Source: Massilioclostridium coli (GTDB lineage Bacteria; Bacillota; Clostridia; Oscillospirales; Ruminococcaceae). From it: 64,000 nt of DNA. The stretch is taken from NCBI RefSeq assembly GCF_900095865.1, contig NZ_FMIZ01000004.1, positions 1 to 64,000 on the forward strand. The letters are read 5' to 3'. This document shows, piece after piece, positions 2,902 through 62,085 of this stretch; position 1 is the stretch's first letter; each line of letters opens with the position of its first letter. The notes below the pieces were generated by a model. The model saw only the letters and a list, made by a program, of their open reading frames with translations. It was not told the DNA's origin and searched no databases. A program made the position numbers and the translations under genes.

Positions 2902-3602
2902 AATATGAAGAAAAATTTTGCGTGCAAGGATTAACAATATTGTTATATCGGTATGTTGTTGCTTGGCAAGAGGACGAACAACATAAACAGTATTATTGTG
3001 TAGACAAACAGGAAGCAAACCAATACAGTGATAGATATGACGATGCGACAGTGCAACCAATAGAGGTTGATCCATCGGATGAATGGATAGATGGTATTAC
3101 TATCCCAGAAACAACACATCCAATGGATGATGCGATTAAAATTTATGAAGCTGGGGAAAATGCCTGGCTAAATAGCAAATACATACCAAGTGCGGAGCAA
3201 TCCGCACAGGCGTTAGCAGGAATACTACTTAACACCATAAAACCAGAAAACGACACCCAAAAATTAGAGTTATCAGGGTTGTACCCAGTATGGGTGGAAG
3301 GAAATCATCCATCCGGTGATATATGCAACGCTAGAGGTCAGACGTGGGAGTGTTATCAATCCCACGATACAGCAACCTATCCTGATATCACGCCAGATAA
3401 CCCAGCATGGTATACCTTCTGGCGATCGTTACACGGGACAAGTCCGGAAACAGCCCGCCCATTTGTGCCAGTACAGGGCTCTCACGATATATATCATAGT
3501 GGCGAATACGCAATTTGGGAGGACGGCAATGTGTACAGATGTAGACAGGATACAAATTTTAGTCCCGGCGAATACCCGCAAGCGTGGGAGGTGGTAGAAT
3601 AA
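2898..3602 (+). CDS. Phage protein with C-terminal chitin-binding-type (ChtBD3/CBM5_12-like) repeats
   Basis: 234 residues from a TTG start at 2898 that overlaps the previous stop, so it is translationally coupled. The N-terminal ~90 residues have no recognised domain. Two W/Y-rich repeats follow. The first, around residues 130-175, reads YPVWVEGNHPSGDICNARGQTWEC...PDNPAW. The second, 195-234, reads YHSGEYAIWEDGNVYRCRQDTN...AWEVVE. These fit the pattern W-x-Y-x-x-GD-V-x(5)-Y-x-C of type-3 carbohydrate-binding modules found in tail tips and chitinases. A cell-surface glycan-binding role is inferred. There is no catalytic motif. The next gene begins directly at the base after the stop. Confidence 0.6.
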   Translation: MKYEEKFCVQGLTILLYRYVVAWQEDEQHKQYYCVDKQEANQYSDRYDDATVQPIEVDPSDEWIDGITIPETTHPMDDAIKIYEAGENAWLNSKYIPSAEQSAQALAGILLNTIKPENDTQKLELSGLYPVWVEGNHPSGDICNARGQTWECYQSHDTATYPDITPDNPAWYTFWRSLHGTSPETARPFVPVQGSHDIYHSGEYAIWEDGNVYRCRQDTNFSPGEYPQAWEVVE

Positions 3603-9904: not shown

Positions 9905-10291
9905 TTATTTTGTAATAGAACGATCTTCCCGAATGTGGTCTAATGATTGGAAGATAATCCCTTTTACATGGTCGTCATCTAAGGAATAAAAAATTTGTTT
10001 TCCTTGACGGCGATATTTGACTAACTTGGAGGATTTTAAGATTCGTAACTGGTGGGATACCGTACTTTGATTTAAAGACAATAGTTCACAAATATCACAA
10101 ACACAAAGTTCATCTTTTCCTAACGCACAAATAATTTTTAGCCTTGTATTATCTGAAAATATTTTATATAGTTCTGCTAACTCCTCAATTTCCTCTAAAG
10201 TAGGAAAATTTTGTTTTGCTAAATCAATCAAATTTTGATGAGGGCAGTTTTCACTACAAACTGGAACATTACATTCGTTCAATTTAGTCAC
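9905..10291 (-). CDS. cadC: ArsR/SmtB-family metal-sensing repressor (CadC-like)
   Basis: 128 residues. The winged-helix core IFSDNTRLKIICAL...LCVCDICELL...STVSHQLRILKSSKLVKYRRQGKQIFYSL is a textbook ArsR/SmtB fold. ELCVCD in helix 3 plus the N-terminal CNVPVCSENCPH form a CadC-type thiolate site. DDDHVKGIIFQSLDHIRE in the last helix has the D-x-H...H-x-x-E residues of an alpha-5 zinc site. These sensors leave DNA when loaded with Cd, Pb or Zn. The first in-frame start is GTG 10291 (TTG 10282 is an alternative); no ATG fits well. A candidate operator lies just upstream (10299). It is the first gene of the operon with the ATPase. Confidence 0.9.
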   Translation of the reverse strand: MTKLNECNVPVCSENCPHQNLIDLAKQNFPTLEEIEELAELYKIFSDNTRLKIICALGKDELCVCDICELLSLNQSTVSHQLRILKSSKLVKYRRQGKQIFYSLDDDHVKGIIFQSLDHIREDRSITK

Positions 10292-10298
10292 CTATTTT

Positions 10299-10324
10299 AA
10301 TATATGCACATATATTCATATGTT
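10299..10324 (-). promoter_or_regulatory. Candidate ArsR/SmtB-type operator
   Basis: ATATATG-CA-CATATAT (10300-10315) is a perfect 7-2-7 dyad, followed by ATTCATATG that continues the pattern. It lies 8 bases upstream of the repressor start, where SmtB/CadC-type operators normally lie. Autoregulation of the repressor-pump operon is inferred. Confidence 0.6.
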
Positions 10325-10420
10325 AATCTTATAATAACTCTTTTTTTATCTTTTGTCAAGGTTCATTTTTTATAAAATCCAACTTATTTTTTGCGTTATT
10401 ACATAGTTTTTTACAATGTT

Positions 10421-10440
10421 TTTTGTTTAATAATACAAAA
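10421..10440 (+). promoter_or_regulatory. Rex-like inverted repeat upstream of the hydrogenase promoter
   Basis: TTTTGT-N8-ACAAAA, with inner TTTAA, lies 26 bases upstream of the hydrogenase -35. It loosely resembles the clostridial Rex box (TTGTTAA-N4-TTAACAA), and Rex commonly controls NADH-linked hydrogenases. The match is imperfect and the call is weak. Confidence 0.3.
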
Positions 10441-10466
10441 ATAAATGTAAATTACACAAAAAATTA

Positions 10467-10495
10467 TTGATTTTATTTGAGCCTTATCGTATAAT
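10467..10495 (+). promoter_or_regulatory. Predicted sigma-A promoter of the hydrogenase operon
   Basis: TTGATT (10467-10472), 17-base spacer, TATAAT (10490-10495), 70 bases before the hndA start. The bases around the -35 closely resemble the glgB promoter at 37956. Confidence 0.75.
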
Positions 10496-10564
10496 GATTA
10501 TGTTTTGTATATAATTTATATAAAAATAAAATACATTATTAATTTTAAAATAGGGAGTGTGCAT

Positions 10565-11056
10565 ATGTTGACCCAAAAAGAACAAAAGGTCCTGGATCAC
10601 ATTTTAAAAGATCATACCTATCAGCAATCAGAAATTATTGCGATTATGCAGGATATCCAGCAAGAATATCATTATTTGCCACAGGAGGCTTTATGCTATA
10701 TAGCTGACCAACTAAAATTGCCAGAAGCAAAGGTATACAGTGTTGCCACCTTTTATGAAAATTTTTCCTTAGAACCAAAAGGAAAATATGTTATCAAAAT
10801 TTGTGATGGCACGGCATGCCATGTAAGAAAATCGGTGCCAATTTTAGAAGAATTCCGAAAATCCTTAGGATTGTCCGATTCCAAACACACGACGGATGAC
10901 ATGATGTTTACTTTAGAAACAGTATCCTGCCTGGGGGCTTGTGGGCTAGCGCCAGTCTGTACTGTAAATGACAAAGTCCATCCTTCTATGACTCCAGAAA
11001 AAGCAAAAGAATTGATACAAACTCTAAAACAGGAGGAAGCATCCAATGAGAATTAA
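10565..11056 (+). CDS. hndA: NADH/ferredoxin-dependent hydrogenase, NuoE-like [2Fe-2S] subunit
   Basis: 163 residues from ATG 10565 (ribosome site GGGAGTG). Upstream in-frame codons back to 10505 lie inside the leader and lack a site. It is NuoE/HndA-like: an N-terminal helical region, then a thioredoxin-like [2Fe-2S] domain with CDGTACHVR near residue 80 and CLGACGLAPVC near residue 122 (the C-x4-C...C-x3-C pattern). In trimeric hydrogenases this subunit (HydC/HndA) relays electrons with the NuoF-like subunit. It overlaps the next gene by 11 bases, so translation is coupled. It is the first gene of a three-gene operon. Confidence 0.92.
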   Translation: MLTQKEQKVLDHILKDHTYQQSEIIAIMQDIQQEYHYLPQEALCYIADQLKLPEAKVYSVATFYENFSLEPKGKYVIKICDGTACHVRKSVPILEEFRKSLGLSDSKHTTDDMMFTLETVSCLGACGLAPVCTVNDKVHPSMTPEKAKELIQTLKQEEASNEN

Positions 11057-12929
11057 TACATATAATGATTTGGTTCAGATGAGGAAAGAATACAAGGCTT
11101 CCCTGGATAGCCAGTACAAACAAATCCTGATTTGCGCAGGTACAGGGTGTGTTGCAGGTGGTTCTCTGGATATTTACGCACGAATGCAGGAATTGCTCAA
11201 TGAAAAAGGGCTGCATACCTCATTAGTATTAGAAAAAGAACCACATGAACATGGTTCCGTTGGTATCAAAAAAAGTGGTTGCCATGGTTTTTGTGAAATG
11301 GGCCCACTACTCCGCATTGAACCACAAGGATATTTATATATCAAGGTAAAAGTAGAAGATTGTGAAGAAATCATCGAAAAAAGTATCCTTCATGATGAAG
11401 TTGTAGAACGCCTGATTTATAAAGACGCAGAACATTCTTATAGTAAACAAGAGGAAATTCCTTTCTATAAAAAACAGACCCGTATTGCTTTAGAACACTG
11501 TGGACATATCAACGCAGAATCCATTAAGGAATATATTGCTGTTGGCGGTTATAGCGCTATGGCAAAAGCTTTATTTGAAATGGACAGCCAGCAAATTGTT
11601 GATGAAATTTCTGAGAGTAATCTGCGTGGCCGCGGAGGCGGAGGCTTCCCCACTGGTGTGAAATGGGCACAGGTACTGGCTCAACCACAAGAGGAAAAAT
11701 ATATTGTCTGTAATGGGGATGAAGGTGACCCGGGTGCATTTATGGACCGGAGCATTATGGAAGGGGACCCTCATCGTGTCATTGAAGGAATGATTATTGC
11801 CGGAATCGCTACAAAAGCACATCATGGCTATATTTATGTGCGTGCGGAATACCCACTGGCAGTAAAACGGTTGAATACTGCTATTGCAAAAGCGAAGGAA
11901 AAAGGGATGCTGGGAAAAAATATTCTGGATTCTGGTTTTGATTTTGATTTACATGTTAACCAGGGTGCAGGCGCATTCGTTTGTGGAGAAGGTAGCGCAC
12001 TTACTGCCTCCATTGAAGGGAACCGTGGCATGCCACGTGTAAAACCTCCTCGTACTGTAGAACAGGGCTTATTTGGAAAGCCAACTGTATTGAACAATGT
12101 AGAAACATTTGCCAATGTTCCTTCTATCATTTTAAAAGGGGCAGATTGGTTTAAAACAATTGGTCCAGAAAATAACCATGGTACAAAAGCATTTGCTTTA
12201 ACTGGAAACGTAAACAATACCGGATTAATCGAAGTGCCAATGGGAACTACTTTACGTGAAGTTATTTTTGACATTGGCGGCGGTGTAAAAGGCGGAGAAT
12301 TCAAGGCAGTACAAATTGGTGGTCCTTCTGGCGGATGCTTATGCTTAAACCATAACCATCTGGATTTACATTTGGATTATGACTCCTTAAAAAAAGTTGG
12401 CGCTATGATCGGAAGCGGCGGCATGGTTGTTATGAATGATAAAAGCTGTATGGTAGAAGTTGCCCGCTTCTTTATGAAATTTACCCAAAATGAGTCTTGC
12501 GGAAAGTGTGTTCCATGCCGTGAAGGGACAAAGCGTATGTTGGAACTGTTAGAAGATATTGTTGCTGGACGTGGTACCATGGAGCATATCACTATGTTAG
12601 AAGAATTATCTCAGATGATTTCCGAAACCGCATTGTGTGGATTAGGTAAAACAGCTGCTTATCCTGTCATTAGTACTTTAAAATATTTCCGTGAAGAGTA
12701 TATCGCCCATGTAGTGGATAAAAAATGTCCAGCTGGGGAATGTAAAGCACTGTTAAACTACGTTATTGACCCAGAAAAATGTAAAGGTTGTAGTAAATGC
12801 GCAAGGGTCTGTCCAGTTGGCGCAATCAGCGGAGAAATCAAAAAGCCTTTTGTTATTGATACAAGCAAATGTATCAAATGTGGCAGCTGTAAAGAAGGCT
12901 GTAAATTCAATGCCATTCGGGAGGAATAA
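11046..12929 (+). CDS. hndC: NADH/ferredoxin-dependent hydrogenase, NuoF-like flavoprotein subunit with extra ferredoxin domains
   Basis: 627 residues (HydB/HndC). Residues about 20-125 are a thioredoxin-like [2Fe-2S] domain (CAGTGCVAGG...GCHGFCEMGP). The NuoF core follows with GRGGGGFPTG near 193 for FMN, and GDEGDPGAFMDRSIMEGDPHR for NAD(H). CGKCVPCREG near 485 supplies a [4Fe-4S] cluster. The C-terminus has two ferredoxin-type clusters (CKGCSKCARVCP and CIKCGSCKEGC, residues about 577-625). This is the NAD(P)H-binding subunit of multimeric [FeFe] hydrogenases. In bifurcating enzymes it couples ferredoxin and NADH oxidation to H2 release. Which nicotinamide is used cannot be decided by eye. 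Confidence 0.93.
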   Translation: MRINTYNDLVQMRKEYKASLDSQYKQILICAGTGCVAGGSLDIYARMQELLNEKGLHTSLVLEKEPHEHGSVGIKKSGCHGFCEMGPLLRIEPQGYLYIKVKVEDCEEIIEKSILHDEVVERLIYKDAEHSYSKQEEIPFYKKQTRIALEHCGHINAESIKEYIAVGGYSAMAKALFEMDSQQIVDEISESNLRGRGGGGFPTGVKWAQVLAQPQEEKYIVCNGDEGDPGAFMDRSIMEGDPHRVIEGMIIAGIATKAHHGYIYVRAEYPLAVKRLNTAIAKAKEKGMLGKNILDSGFDFDLHVNQGAGAFVCGEGSALTASIEGNRGMPRVKPPRTVEQGLFGKPTVLNNVETFANVPSIILKGADWFKTIGPENNHGTKAFALTGNVNNTGLIEVPMGTTLREVIFDIGGGVKGGEFKAVQIGGPSGGCLCLNHNHLDLHLDYDSLKKVGAMIGSGGMVVMNDKSCMVEVARFFMKFTQNESCGKCVPCREGTKRMLELLEDIVAGRGTMEHITMLEELSQMISETALCGLGKTAAYPVISTLKYFREEYIAHVVDKKCPAGECKALLNYVIDPEKCKGCSKCARVCPVGAISGEIKKPFVIDTSKCIKCGSCKEGCKFNAIREE

Positions 12930-59160: not shown

Positions 59161-59538
59161 ATGCAAAACGGTTTTTCACAACCACCTTACCCAAATCCCA
59201 ATATGCCACCATACTATCCACCTCAACCGCCACGTAAATCCAGTGGAAAATCAATCGCTTCTTTAGTGTTGGGAATCATTTCAGATGCATTATTGGTAAT
59301 TACTTGTTGTGTTTTCCCTTGGATTTCATTAATATGCTCTATTATTGGTATTATTTTAGGGATGTTAGGGAAAAAAGAAAATTCGAATGGAGTTGCAATT
59401 GCCGGATTAATCACCAATATTATTGCATTGGTTTTATCTATTGCAATGGTATTTTTGGTTATTTTAGTTTATATTGGTATCTTGGATACTTCTGGATGGT
59501 ACTATAATTATTCTTTCTATAGTCCATTTATTCAATAA
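59161..59538 (+). CDS. Small proline-rich membrane protein, DUF4190-like
   Basis: 125 residues, ATG after AAAAGGAGAATGAA. The first ~25 residues are Pro/Tyr-rich (PPYPNPNMPPYYPPQPP), followed by SIASLVLGIISDALLVITCC and GIILGMLGKKENSNGVAIAGLITNIIALVLSIAMVFL. The pattern of a Pro-rich lead, S-x-A-S-L-V-L-G, and G-x-A-I-A-G-L-I-x-x-I is that of DUF4190-type membrane proteins. Their function is unknown. It has its own consensus promoter and terminator, so it is probably well expressed. Confidence 0.75.
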   Translation: MQNGFSQPPYPNPNMPPYYPPQPPRKSSGKSIASLVLGIISDALLVITCCVFPWISLICSIIGIILGMLGKKENSNGVAIAGLITNIIALVLSIAMVFLVILVYIGILDTSGWYYNYSFYSPFIQ

Positions 59539-59551
59539 TGAGGAATTAGAT

Positions 59552-59584
59552 AAAGACCTGTAGTAAATTACTACAGGTCTTTTA
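59552..59584 (+). terminator. Intrinsic terminator of the DUF4190-like gene
   Basis: AAGACCTGTAGTAA / TTACTACAGGTCTT, near-perfect with a very small loop, then TTATTATG. Confidence 0.88.
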
Positions 59585-59610: not shown

Positions 59611-59639
59611 TTGACAATAGATAGAAAAATAGATATATT
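59611..59639 (+). promoter_or_regulatory. Predicted promoter of the TIR gene
   Basis: TTGACA (59611-59616), 17-base spacer, TATATT (59634-59639), about 70 bases before the ATG. The gene is therefore likely expressed without induction. Confidence 0.65.
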
Positions 59640-59707
59640 AAATAATGGAAAATAATATAATAATGATGGCATAAATTGAAACTTTATTTAGCTCAGGAGG
59701 AAAAATA

Positions 59708-61615
59708 ATGGAGATTTTAAAATGTAAAATGTGTGGAGGAGATATCCAAGTAGAAGGAAACCAAGGATTTGGAACCTGTGAATACTGTGGAACCACCATG
59801 ACTTTACCAAAAATAGATAGCGAACAACAGGCCAACCAGTTTAATCGCGGAAATCATTTTAGAAGGAATGGAGAATTCGATCGTGCCTACCAAGTATATG
59901 AACGTATCATAGAGCAGAATCCTACTAATGCGGAAGCTCATTGGTGCTTAGCATTGAGCAGATATGGGATTGAATATGTAGAAGACCCAACCAGCCATGA
60001 GAGAATACCAACTTTTCACAGAATGAGCTATGACCTGATCATGAATGATGCTGATTATCAGGCGGCATTACAGTATTCAGAAGGGATAACCCGTTCGTTA
60101 TATGAAAAAGAGGGGAATCGGATAGCGGAAATCCAGAAAGGGATGCTGGCGATATCACAGCAGGAAGATCCATATGATGTATTTATTTGTTATAAAGAAA
60201 CGGATGAGAAAGGAGAAAGGACGCAGGACAGTGTGATAGCCCAGGATATCTACTACCAATTGGTAAATGAAGGGTATAAAGTGTTTTTCTCACGGATTAC
60301 ATTAGAAGGAAAATTGGGACAAAAATATGAGCCCTATATTTTTGCAGCATTAAACAGTGCAAAAACAATGCTGGTAGTGGGAACAAAACCAGAGTATTAT
60401 AATGCAGTATGGGTAAAAAATGAATGGGGTAGATACCTACAATTGATGAAAAAAGATAAAAATCGGTTAATAATTCCATGCTATCGAGATATGGATCCAT
60501 ATGACTTGCCAGAGGAACTATCTTATTTCCAAAGCCAGAATATGGGGAAAATAGGATTTATACAAGATTTAATTCATGGGATAAAAAAGATATTATCCGA
60601 CAAACAGGAACCTGTCCAAGCAACAGTACAGCAGGCTGTATCTGTCCAGAATACGGTGAATGACCAATTGCGAAATATTGTGGCATTGGGTTTCATGGAT
60701 TTAGAACAGGGGAAAAATGAGTCCGCAGAACAAACTTTTCGAGACGCATTGAAAATGGATATGAAATGTGCTGAAGCATATTTGGGATTATATATTGTAA
60801 CCCATAGCAAAGGGCATAAAAATTTGCAAGGAGAGTTAAACTCATATGCATCCAAAATGAAACGGTATGCTCCACAAATGACAGAATTTGAAAAAGAACT
60901 GTTTCAAGATGAAATGCAGTTGAAAATTGTACAGTCATACCTTTATATGAAGGACAACGATCGTATTAAAACAATTCTACAGATACAACCGGATATTTTA
61001 GAATCCAGAATATATGAACCAACAGCCCATTATCCGTTGTTGACCTGGGCCATTTTAGAAAAAGATATGGAAATGGTGGCCGTCTTATTAGAAAATGGAG
61101 CAAATCCAAATGGAGAGAGAATTTGTACAACAGATTATGCCGAAGTACATATTAGCCCGTTAGGGGATGCTATTTGGAATGAACCAAATGTAGAGATTGT
61201 AAGGTTGCTATTGCAATATGGAGCGGATGCCAATGGATATAGAGTATATCAAAAAGACAATGAGTATGCTGTATACAGTTTACTATCCGATGCCATTTGG
61301 AATGCACATAATATAGAGATGGTACAGCTATTGCTACAACATGGCGCAAACCCCAATTTTATGTATCAAAGCCATAATGAAGATGGAACAGTAGATGAAT
61401 ATACTATGTTATCCGATGCCATTATTTATGCACAAAATATGGATATGGTGCAATTATTGTTGCAATATGGAGCCTCTTTAGATACTGAAATTACAGTGGA
61501 AAGAAGAAAAAAACCAATCCGGAAATTTCCATTCCGCCGTTTAATGAAAACGACCATATCCCCTGACTTTTTAAGACAGTTAAAAACTATTGGTTGGAAA
61601 GAGGGATGGTTTTAA
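59708..61615 (+). CDS. Zinc-ribbon / TPR / TIR / ankyrin-repeat protein
   Basis: 635 residues, ATG behind CAGGAGG. Order: zinc ribbon (C6-x2-C9...C24-x2-C27), TPR-like helices (~45-105), TIR domain (~156-290), TPR-like helices (~325-370), ankyrin repeats (~440-600). The TIR starts YDVFICYKETDEKGERTQDSVIAQDIYYQL and continues GYKVFFSRITLEGKLGQKYEPYIFAALNSAKTMLVVGTK. Glu ~208 in YEPYI stands where TIR NADases have the catalytic Glu. Ankyrin units read MEMVAVLLENGANPNG, VEIVRLLLQYGADANG and IEMVQLLLQHGANPN. Bacterial TIR proteins often cleave NAD+ in phage defence, or act as sensors. No partner such as Thoeris ThsA is adjacent. No signal peptide is seen, so it is cytosolic. Confidence 0.88.
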   Translation: MEILKCKMCGGDIQVEGNQGFGTCEYCGTTMTLPKIDSEQQANQFNRGNHFRRNGEFDRAYQVYERIIEQNPTNAEAHWCLALSRYGIEYVEDPTSHERIPTFHRMSYDLIMNDADYQAALQYSEGITRSLYEKEGNRIAEIQKGMLAISQQEDPYDVFICYKETDEKGERTQDSVIAQDIYYQLVNEGYKVFFSRITLEGKLGQKYEPYIFAALNSAKTMLVVGTKPEYYNAVWVKNEWGRYLQLMKKDKNRLIIPCYRDMDPYDLPEELSYFQSQNMGKIGFIQDLIHGIKKILSDKQEPVQATVQQAVSVQNTVNDQLRNIVALGFMDLEQGKNESAEQTFRDALKMDMKCAEAYLGLYIVTHSKGHKNLQGELNSYASKMKRYAPQMTEFEKELFQDEMQLKIVQSYLYMKDNDRIKTILQIQPDILESRIYEPTAHYPLLTWAILEKDMEMVAVLLENGANPNGERICTTDYAEVHISPLGDAIWNEPNVEIVRLLLQYGADANGYRVYQKDNEYAVYSLLSDAIWNAHNIEMVQLLLQHGANPNFMYQSHNEDGTVDEYTMLSDAIIYAQNMDMVQLLLQYGASLDTEITVERRKKPIRKFPFRRLMKTTISPDFLRQLKTIGWKEGWF

Positions 61616-61618
61616 TCT

Positions 61619-62041
61619 CTAAAAGTAAAAATACTGTAAATACCAGCTGGTATTTCGGAGAATAAAAAAAGCAATTAAACTGATCATAAACAGTACAGCA
61701 TACCACCAGTGAAATTTTATTTTAATCGGTTTATCTGCAAAGAAAATAGAATGGATGGTAAACCAAATAAGAAATAATAACCCTATAACAATCCACAGGA
61801 AAAAGTAAGGATTGTATCGAAAGGCTTGTAATAAATCCAACTGTATGATACAATCGAACATACGGGTTAATCCACAGGACCAGCAAGCTAATCCAGTGGT
61901 GTTTTTTATGATACAACCTTCTGATAGTCCCATCCATTGGGTGGGATACCATTGGAAGTGATGGAATAAAAACCAGCCAACGAACAATACGGTCCAGATA
62001 CCGATACATAAAATACGTTTTGTTTTATGGGAAAGTGTCAA
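61619..62041 (-). CDS. DUF2752 membrane protein
   Basis: 140 residues from TTG 62041, eight bases behind AAGGAAGGG; TTG 62071 would give 150 without a site. Core: HHFQWYPTQWMGLSEGCIIKNTTGLACWSCGLTRMFDCIIQLDLLQAFRYNPYFFLWIVIGLLFLIW. The C-x-x-CGLTR motif followed by A-F-x-x-NP is diagnostic of DUF2752, small membrane proteins of unknown function found across Bacteria. Three to four membrane helices. It converges on the TIR gene with 3 bases between, and is divergent from the next gene. Confidence 0.82.
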   Translation of the reverse strand: MTLSHKTKRILCIGIWTVLFVGWFLFHHFQWYPTQWMGLSEGCIIKNTTGLACWSCGLTRMFDCIIQLDLLQAFRYNPYFFLWIVIGLLFLIWFTIHSIFFADKPIKIKFHWWYAVLFMISLIAFFILRNTSWYLQYFYF

Positions 62042-62085
62042 TGGAAAATCCCTTCCTTTCAAAAATCTCAAATAGGGGTGTTATG

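Follow-up and report, generated by a model that had tools for sequence, protein, structure and literature searches.

Most of what is known about bacterial TIR enzymes comes from defined defence systems, each with one fixed protein that reads the trigger. SPARTA, AbTir, SARM1 and the plant TNL receptors resemble the family studied here in having a TIR fold with a WxxxE glutamate (Z 14.9-18.3 for SPARTA, L6, SARM1 and AbTir) and repeat or ligand-binding parts fused to the TIR domain. Our starting point was a protein encoded in a 64,000-nucleotide stretch of the Massilioclostridium coli genome (positions 1 to 64,000 of contig NZ_FMIZ01000004.1, hereafter the window). Unlike SPARTA, SARM1 and plant TNLs, this protein has no Argonaute/APAZ, SAM or NB-ARC part and instead carries a zinc ribbon-TPR core and a tail of the kind exchanged across its family; Pfam and open reading frames around the gene gave neither an APAZ domain nor a short Argonaute. 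Compared with AbTir, the family has apparently replaced the strand-B aspartate. Thoeris (ThsB, type III ThcB) is likewise based on bacterial TIR proteins, and one gene found within the cassettes described below (locus L074) is ThsB-like (best PADLOC E 1e-24), whereas the window core reaches ThcB4 only at E=0.003, matches no ThsB model and has no ThsA (SIR2-SLOG) partner among its neighbours.

Two other kinds of system are relevant. The family shares with the diversity-generating retroelement (DGR)-diversified CLec sensors that accompany TIR or NTPase effectors, as presented in the sections consulted of PMC10907252 and PMC7159879, a lectin-like tail that ends a conflict-type protein and is DGR-hypermutated in one relative. 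In contrast to the systems in those sections, it belongs to gut Clostridia and not to multicellular bacteria, shows no MoxR-vWA or STAND NTPase, and has a putative SPFH/TM-protein platform instead; the same sections of Dore et al. 2024 (PMC10907252) and Kaur et al. 2020 (PMC7159879) contain no SPFH cassette. In B. subtilis PspA-YdjGHI (PMC8581546), the gene of an SPFH protein accompanies those of membrane proteins by which a cytosolic client is recruited, as we propose for the cassette, although here the client would be a TIR protein rather than PspA and the TM protein of ~230 aa has no Pfam match. PADLOC placed the window protein in no named system, giving candidate models only (PDC-M72A via the ankyrin repeats and, weakly, PDC-S66), and matched no model to the SPFH and TM genes. 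In a search of 5.39 million papers outside subscription, which makes any novelty provisional, 'TIR domain' and 'SPFH' occur together in only two, and in one of these, PMC7159879, SPFH appears just in the title of a reference.

Domain organization and TIR active site

The gene is a single open frame with the following parts and neighbours:

59161-59538, forward strand: left syntenic neighbour, a DUF4190-like membrane protein, outside the system (Pfam; synteny)
59552-59582, forward strand: intrinsic-terminator-like hairpin between the upstream DUF4190-like gene and the TIR gene (14-pair stem, T tail)
59611-59639, forward strand: promoter-like site TTGACA-17-TATATT (11/12 consensus match)
59695-59700, forward strand: Shine-Dalgarno AGGAGG (sequence)
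59708-61615, forward strand: TIR sensor-effector gene, 635 aa, ATG start (sequence, Pfam, alignment, model)
59708-59806, forward strand: N-terminal zinc ribbon, residues 1-33, with C6, C9, C24 and C27 (Cys invariance; strands at pLDDT >90)
59822-60163, forward strand: first TPR/helical block, residues 39-152, with the conserved GIEYVEDP motif (Pfam TPR; model)
60176-60604, forward strand: TIR domain, residues 157-299 (Pfam TIR_2; structure comparison)
60329-60331, forward strand: E208, at the start of the helix preceding strand C (invariant)
60410-60424, forward strand: WxxxE motif W235-V-K-N-E239, predicted catalytic Glu E239 (invariance; HMMER alignment; motif definition PMC11374754)
60641-60877, forward strand: second TPR block, residues ~312-390, the last family-shared part (alignment, model)
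60905-61483, forward strand: ankyrin-repeat tail, residues 400-592, at the family-variable sensor position (Pfam Ank; structure comparison)
61619-62071, reverse strand: right syntenic neighbour, a DUF2752 protein, outside the system (Pfam; synteny)

The original prediction described a zinc ribbon / TPR / TIR / ankyrin protein, and this composition is real. Pfam detects TPR (residues 47-86), TIR_2 (158-273, E=1e-10) and Ank (E=2.5e-15); the zinc ribbon scores weakly (E=0.05), yet its cysteines 6, 9, 24 and 27 are invariant in 73 homologues, and AlphaFold2 gives a confident TIR fold together with an ankyrin array. A second conserved TPR block (~312-390) had been missing from the predicted domain list. 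The architecture was called unusual, which is correct for the ankyrin tail only, the zinc ribbon-TPR-TIR arrangement being standard across a family of >500 matches. The near-consensus promoter is also present, as a consensus match and no proof of a promoter, since the number of sites in the scan was about equal to that in its shuffles. No TM segment or secretion signal was seen in the window protein.

AlphaFold2, run with 73 sequences, gave a mean pLDDT of 82. Most of the zinc ribbon, first TPR block and TIR domain is >90, and the BB loop region (residues 197-201) is <50. Because the structural matches listed for the full model were almost all to ankyrin proteins, the TIR domain was modelled separately. 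Compared alone with solved structures it matched SPARTA (Z 18.3, rmsd 1.9 over 134), L6 (16.1), SARM1 (15.7) and AbTir (14.9), with the MAL and MyD88 TIRs likewise among the matches; the tail (400-635) matched ankyrin structures at Z ~18. The structure prediction that had been proposed as a check thus gives a confident TIR fold closest to NADase TIRs, while sequence likeness to any solved TIR is very weak (best E 0.006).

The catalytic glutamate had been placed at about residue 208, within YEPYI, which is the wrong position. In bacterial TIR NADases it belongs to a WxxxE motif whose C helix follows strand C (W204/E208 in AbTir; PMC11374754), and the catalytic residues of RUN1 and SARM1 are E100 and E642 (PMC7282519). 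That definition, together with an HMMER alignment to flax L6-family and TLR TIRs in which W235-VKN-E239 falls on the W-CLM-E of the flax L6-family TIR, rules out E208 and points to E239. Judged from the ends of the aligned ranges, AbTir E208 (AbTir 134-267 on model residues 6-148) lies near model residue 89-90, corresponding to window E238/E239, and SARM1 E642 (561-700 on 6-146) near model residue 88. W235 and E239 are invariant in the 73 sequences, and so is E208. A strand-B aspartate is needed for the NADase activity of AbTir (D167), as also in TcpC; we know of no requirement for it across all TIR NADases. Its apparent counterpart in the family, by a register set by eye from the strand-B motif, is residue 195, which is Ser in 48 and Ala in 25 of the 73. 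The claim of an intact active site therefore stands in part: W235 and E239 are retained and intactness is likely, but the site appears incomplete at Ser/Ala195, the apparent counterpart of Asp167. As judged from sequence, the window TIR keeps its catalytic motif, and NADase catalysis is likely but not assured given invariant W235/E239 on one side and Ser/Ala at 195 on the other.

A conserved core with exchanged C-termini

The window gene is a member of a large, apparently undescribed TIR family of gut Clostridia. Core identity is 39-55% over ~405 aa in 72 homologues, invariant residues include C6/C9/C24/C27, D157, R171, E208, W235 and E239, and the window core (residues 1-300) carries the family marks, namely the four cysteines, GIEYVEDP, DVFICYKE and WVKNEW. 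Of 295 genomes of the order, 36 carry the core (24 of them as strong matches), as do 2 of 398 genomes across the phylum, and the GTDB species collection gave at least 570 candidate stretches; the GTDB matches listed are mostly Clostridia of animal gut, rumen and termites, with some metagenome-assembled genomes labelled Lentisphaerae, Planctomycetes, Synergistes or Holophagales. Its spread is patchy and multi-copy, with up to 11 core matches in one genome and frequent tandem arrays. Searches of phage and plasmid collections yielded no family member and IMG/VR one matching contig, and on this basis a phage- or plasmid-borne origin of the window gene was rejected. No homologue with characterised activity was found; this and the absence from the phage and plasmid collections count against the explanation that we favour.

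Beyond residue ~380 the C-termini diverge, with DUF6273 in 54 of 111, RCC1 in 16, LRR (LRR_5) in 6 and ankyrin repeats in one, the window protein. DUF6273 is C-type-lectin-like by AlphaFold2 and DALI (PMC10743442); our profile search found no solved structure for it. On a quick tree of 122 cores, with tail classes assigned by sequence patterns, tail class changes 43 times, compared with a minimum of 6 and a shuffled mean of 51.3, indicating that tails are exchanged; RCC1 accounts for 11 changes for 12 rows and LRR for 6 for 6. The idea that the ankyrin tail was taken from a close relative was discarded, as the order holds only weak ankyrin matches (best E 2e-10, 31%). A hydrophobic TM segment lies between core and tail in 67 of 106 C-termini, and its N-terminal side is the more positive in 55 of these 67, so that the core would stay in the cytosol. 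The longest TIR-core protein seen has 2232 aa, with a C-terminal tail of >1900 residues (L067:8001-14699).

One relative, on an uncultured Eubacterium contig, carries a complete DGR aimed at the C-type-lectin-like end of its TIR-core protein (L065:334-4761). A 126-base near copy of the lectin end forms the template repeat (3383-3508). Every one of the 21 mismatches falls on an A of this intergenic copy, which is preceded by a bAvd gene, and a reverse transcriptase gene (RVT_1, LGNQTSQ) comes after it. This arrangement supports a tail position that senses a changing ligand. The retroelement is intact in this locus only among those collected, and no reverse transcriptase of its type was found in the window genome at E 1e-30. 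A family-wide link was rejected, as DGR-type reverse transcriptases occur in 17 of the 295 genomes of the order and in none of the strong TIR-core genomes; the DGR, being so rarely linked, is no family rule. Short frames resembling the L065 reverse transcriptase and Avd, at L063:11006-11308 and L091:11779-12579, are degenerate remnants adjoining TIR-core genes.

The SPFH cassette and the orphan window copy

Most collected relatives lie in a cassette that usually runs SPFH-TM protein-(slot gene)-TIR and closes with between one and four TIR genes. Among 79 collected loci, the best-scoring ones, SPFH occurs in 52 and the ~230-aa TM protein in 51; where enough flank was available (29 loci), 22 have SPFH and 7 have neither. 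The SPFH protein is Pfam Band_7_1, often with zinc ribbons, and its gene overlaps the TM gene or sits at most 41 bases from it. An independent, order-wide draw of 295 genomes found an SPFH gene in 21 of 24 TIR-core genomes versus 16 of 271 others (Fisher p 3e-19, uncorrected for phylogeny), and of the 28 SPFH places in the TIR-core genomes, 20 have a TIR core no more than 7 kb away.

Among 34 genes inside the cassette we identified HEPN (5), AbiH/SIR2_2 (3), DUF2971 (3), a ThsB-like TIR (1) and DUF4365 (1). Homologues of the recurring SIR2/AbiH-like, HEPN-like and c7 slot genes, even outside the slot, sit ~107 bp or nearer to a cassette gene on the same strand; a slot effector is missing from many loci. 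Genes flanking the cassette outside are mostly housekeeping, and the flanks are no defence islands. PADLOC counts were discarded as proof of such islands because background flanking genes match many PADLOC models too. Homologues confined to housekeeping contexts, which the original prediction gave as part of what would refute it, are therefore half borne out: outside the cassette most genes are of this kind, whereas inside it conflict-type genes recur. Some cassettes also contain proteins with a similar N-terminal zinc ribbon and no TIR domain (L085:3784-5709, also with RCC1 repeats; L059:7552-7935; L102:2573-3175), possibly effector-less relatives.

SPFH and TM-protein genes are absent beside the window copy, in agreement with the original prediction that no partner adjoins it. 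It shares this orphan state with others: of the 48 TIR-core matches in the order, 25 lack an SPFH gene closer than 12 kb, and 8 of 11 genomes with orphan copies, that of M. coli included, have an SPFH gene elsewhere. The second TIR copy of the same genome (C1:1616682) is in such a cassette, with these genes at locus L122:

8643-9902: SPFH
9908-10597: TM protein
10683-12605: TIR

This second copy (L122:10683-13205, G000:C1) has an in-frame stop between its TM/TPR part and its DUF6273 part, and the lectin-like domain is cut off in the assembly.

The only other genome of the genus has TrkH, DUF4190-like, DUF2752, DUF2238-like and M23 peptidase genes in the same order, with one extra gene after TrkH. 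At the syntenic site the DUF4190-like gene abuts DUF2752 and the TIR gene is absent; we rejected the DUF4190, DUF2752 and DUF2238 neighbours as partners because they stand together there without it. With these two genomes compared, the difference may be a gain in M. coli or a loss in its sister. Between TrkH and DUF4190-like the sister genome also has an iron-sulphur hydrogenase-like gene (L120:4798-6270, G001:C17) that is missing from the window. The window core is closer to some cores of other lineages (up to 67%) than to the second copy of its own genome (57%), as would be expected of a horizontally gained gene more than of a recent duplicate. An IS110-like transposase frame, named by eye, lies ~9.5 kb downstream of the TIR gene (L121:15070-16326, G000:C3, ~71.1-72.3 kb).

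Proposed function and its alternatives

We favour, at roughly even confidence, a reading of the window protein as a cytosolic ankyrin-sensing orphan ('satellite') TIR NADase, by predicted activity, of a membrane-platform conflict system. It builds on computed family membership, core conservation, C-terminus exchange, cassette linkage, retained WxxxE and fold. The zinc ribbon-TPR-TIR-TPR core would signal and act as effector, with sensing left to the exchanged C-terminus, which in the window protein consists of ankyrin repeats. That the repeats sense a protein trigger, as had been proposed, is plausible; they may bind an intracellular protein, perhaps phage or damage-associated. Ligand binding would release or cluster the TIR domains, and clustered TIR would cut NAD+ via Glu239, leading to cell arrest or death or to an ADP-ribose signal. 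The SPFH protein and the ~230-aa TM protein probably make up a platform at the membrane, which would hold or trigger the TIR protein by way of zinc ribbons and TPRs, and the window copy would use in trans the platform of the cassette elsewhere in its genome. We infer from this scheme a role against phage. Weighing against the reading are the apparent replacement at Ser/Ala195, cassette flanks that are no defence islands, and the absence of SPFH and TM genes beside the window copy.

In B. subtilis, SPFH/YdjI proteins work in the repair of envelope stress (PMC8581546), and for this reason the cassette may concern stress and not phage. The main rival is accordingly an envelope-stress module, an SPFH-TM platform akin to PspA-YdjGHI whose TIR client reports or answers membrane damage, whatever its cause, by means of a signal or a non-lethal NAD+ drop, with tails that read stress ligands and any anti-phage activity as a side effect. 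The cassette does encode a Band_7_1 SPFH with the operon logic of YdjI, whose recruitment of PspA to the membrane depends on its partners YdjG/YdjH (PMC8581546), and both the TM segments in 67 of 106 C-termini, with their more positive N-terminal side in 55 of 67, and the mostly housekeeping flanks would suit such a module. We nevertheless consider it unlikely, since the accessory genes are conflict-type (HEPN, AbiH/SIR2, DUF2971, TIR) and not repair-type, and since near-random tail exchange on the tree and one DGR-hypermutated tail suit an evolving ligand better than membrane damage. Quite unlikely is a catalytically silent TIR that oligomerises only, in the style of TLR adaptors, and signals to another effector (the SPFH complex or a slot gene): invariant W235 and E239 in 73 sequences, best structural matches to NADase TIRs and the many loci without a slot effector all speak for catalysis, whereas Ser/Ala at 195 in place of the Asp167 that AbTir needs, strong conservation outside the active site and the structural matches to MAL and MyD88 would suit a silent domain.

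A stand-alone single-gene defence, one option of the original prediction, would have the window copy work without a partner. Its own promoter-like site and upstream terminator, the missing cassette gene beside it, the 25 of 48 copies of the order that are also far from SPFH, and presence or absence between sister genomes are what such a gene would show, but SPFH elsewhere in 8 of 11 orphan-copy genomes, its own included, leaves this reading improbable. The satellite receptor of a shared platform is the likelier of the two because other copies, among them the second one of this genome, are usually found in the SPFH-TM protein-TIR cassette. Ankyrin repeats and TIR domains each occur in host-acting effectors of other bacteria, and interaction with a host had also been suggested. 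We found no support for such a role, and regard a protein that is delivered into eukaryotic host cells or acts upon them as extremely improbable: the protein has no visible TM segment or secretion signal and its family is tied in operons to bacterial membrane-protein genes.

The satellite reading can be extended, more tentatively and at less than even confidence, to a Toll-receptor-like immune system of gut Clostridia. Its TIR receptors would have a fixed core and exchanged sensors (lectin-like, propeller, LRR, ankyrin), often membrane-spanning, on an SPFH/TM-protein platform, with one hub and several satellites per genome and a DGR-hypermutated lectin in at least one lineage; the window gene would be its soluble ankyrin satellite. 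In this family a single TIR core occurs with many sensor types and is linked to SPFH membrane scaffolds. Should it prove to be an immune system, gut commensals would have a repertoire of TIR receptors at their disposal, SPFH scaffolds would be tied to defence, and natural sensor swaps would be available for direct testing.
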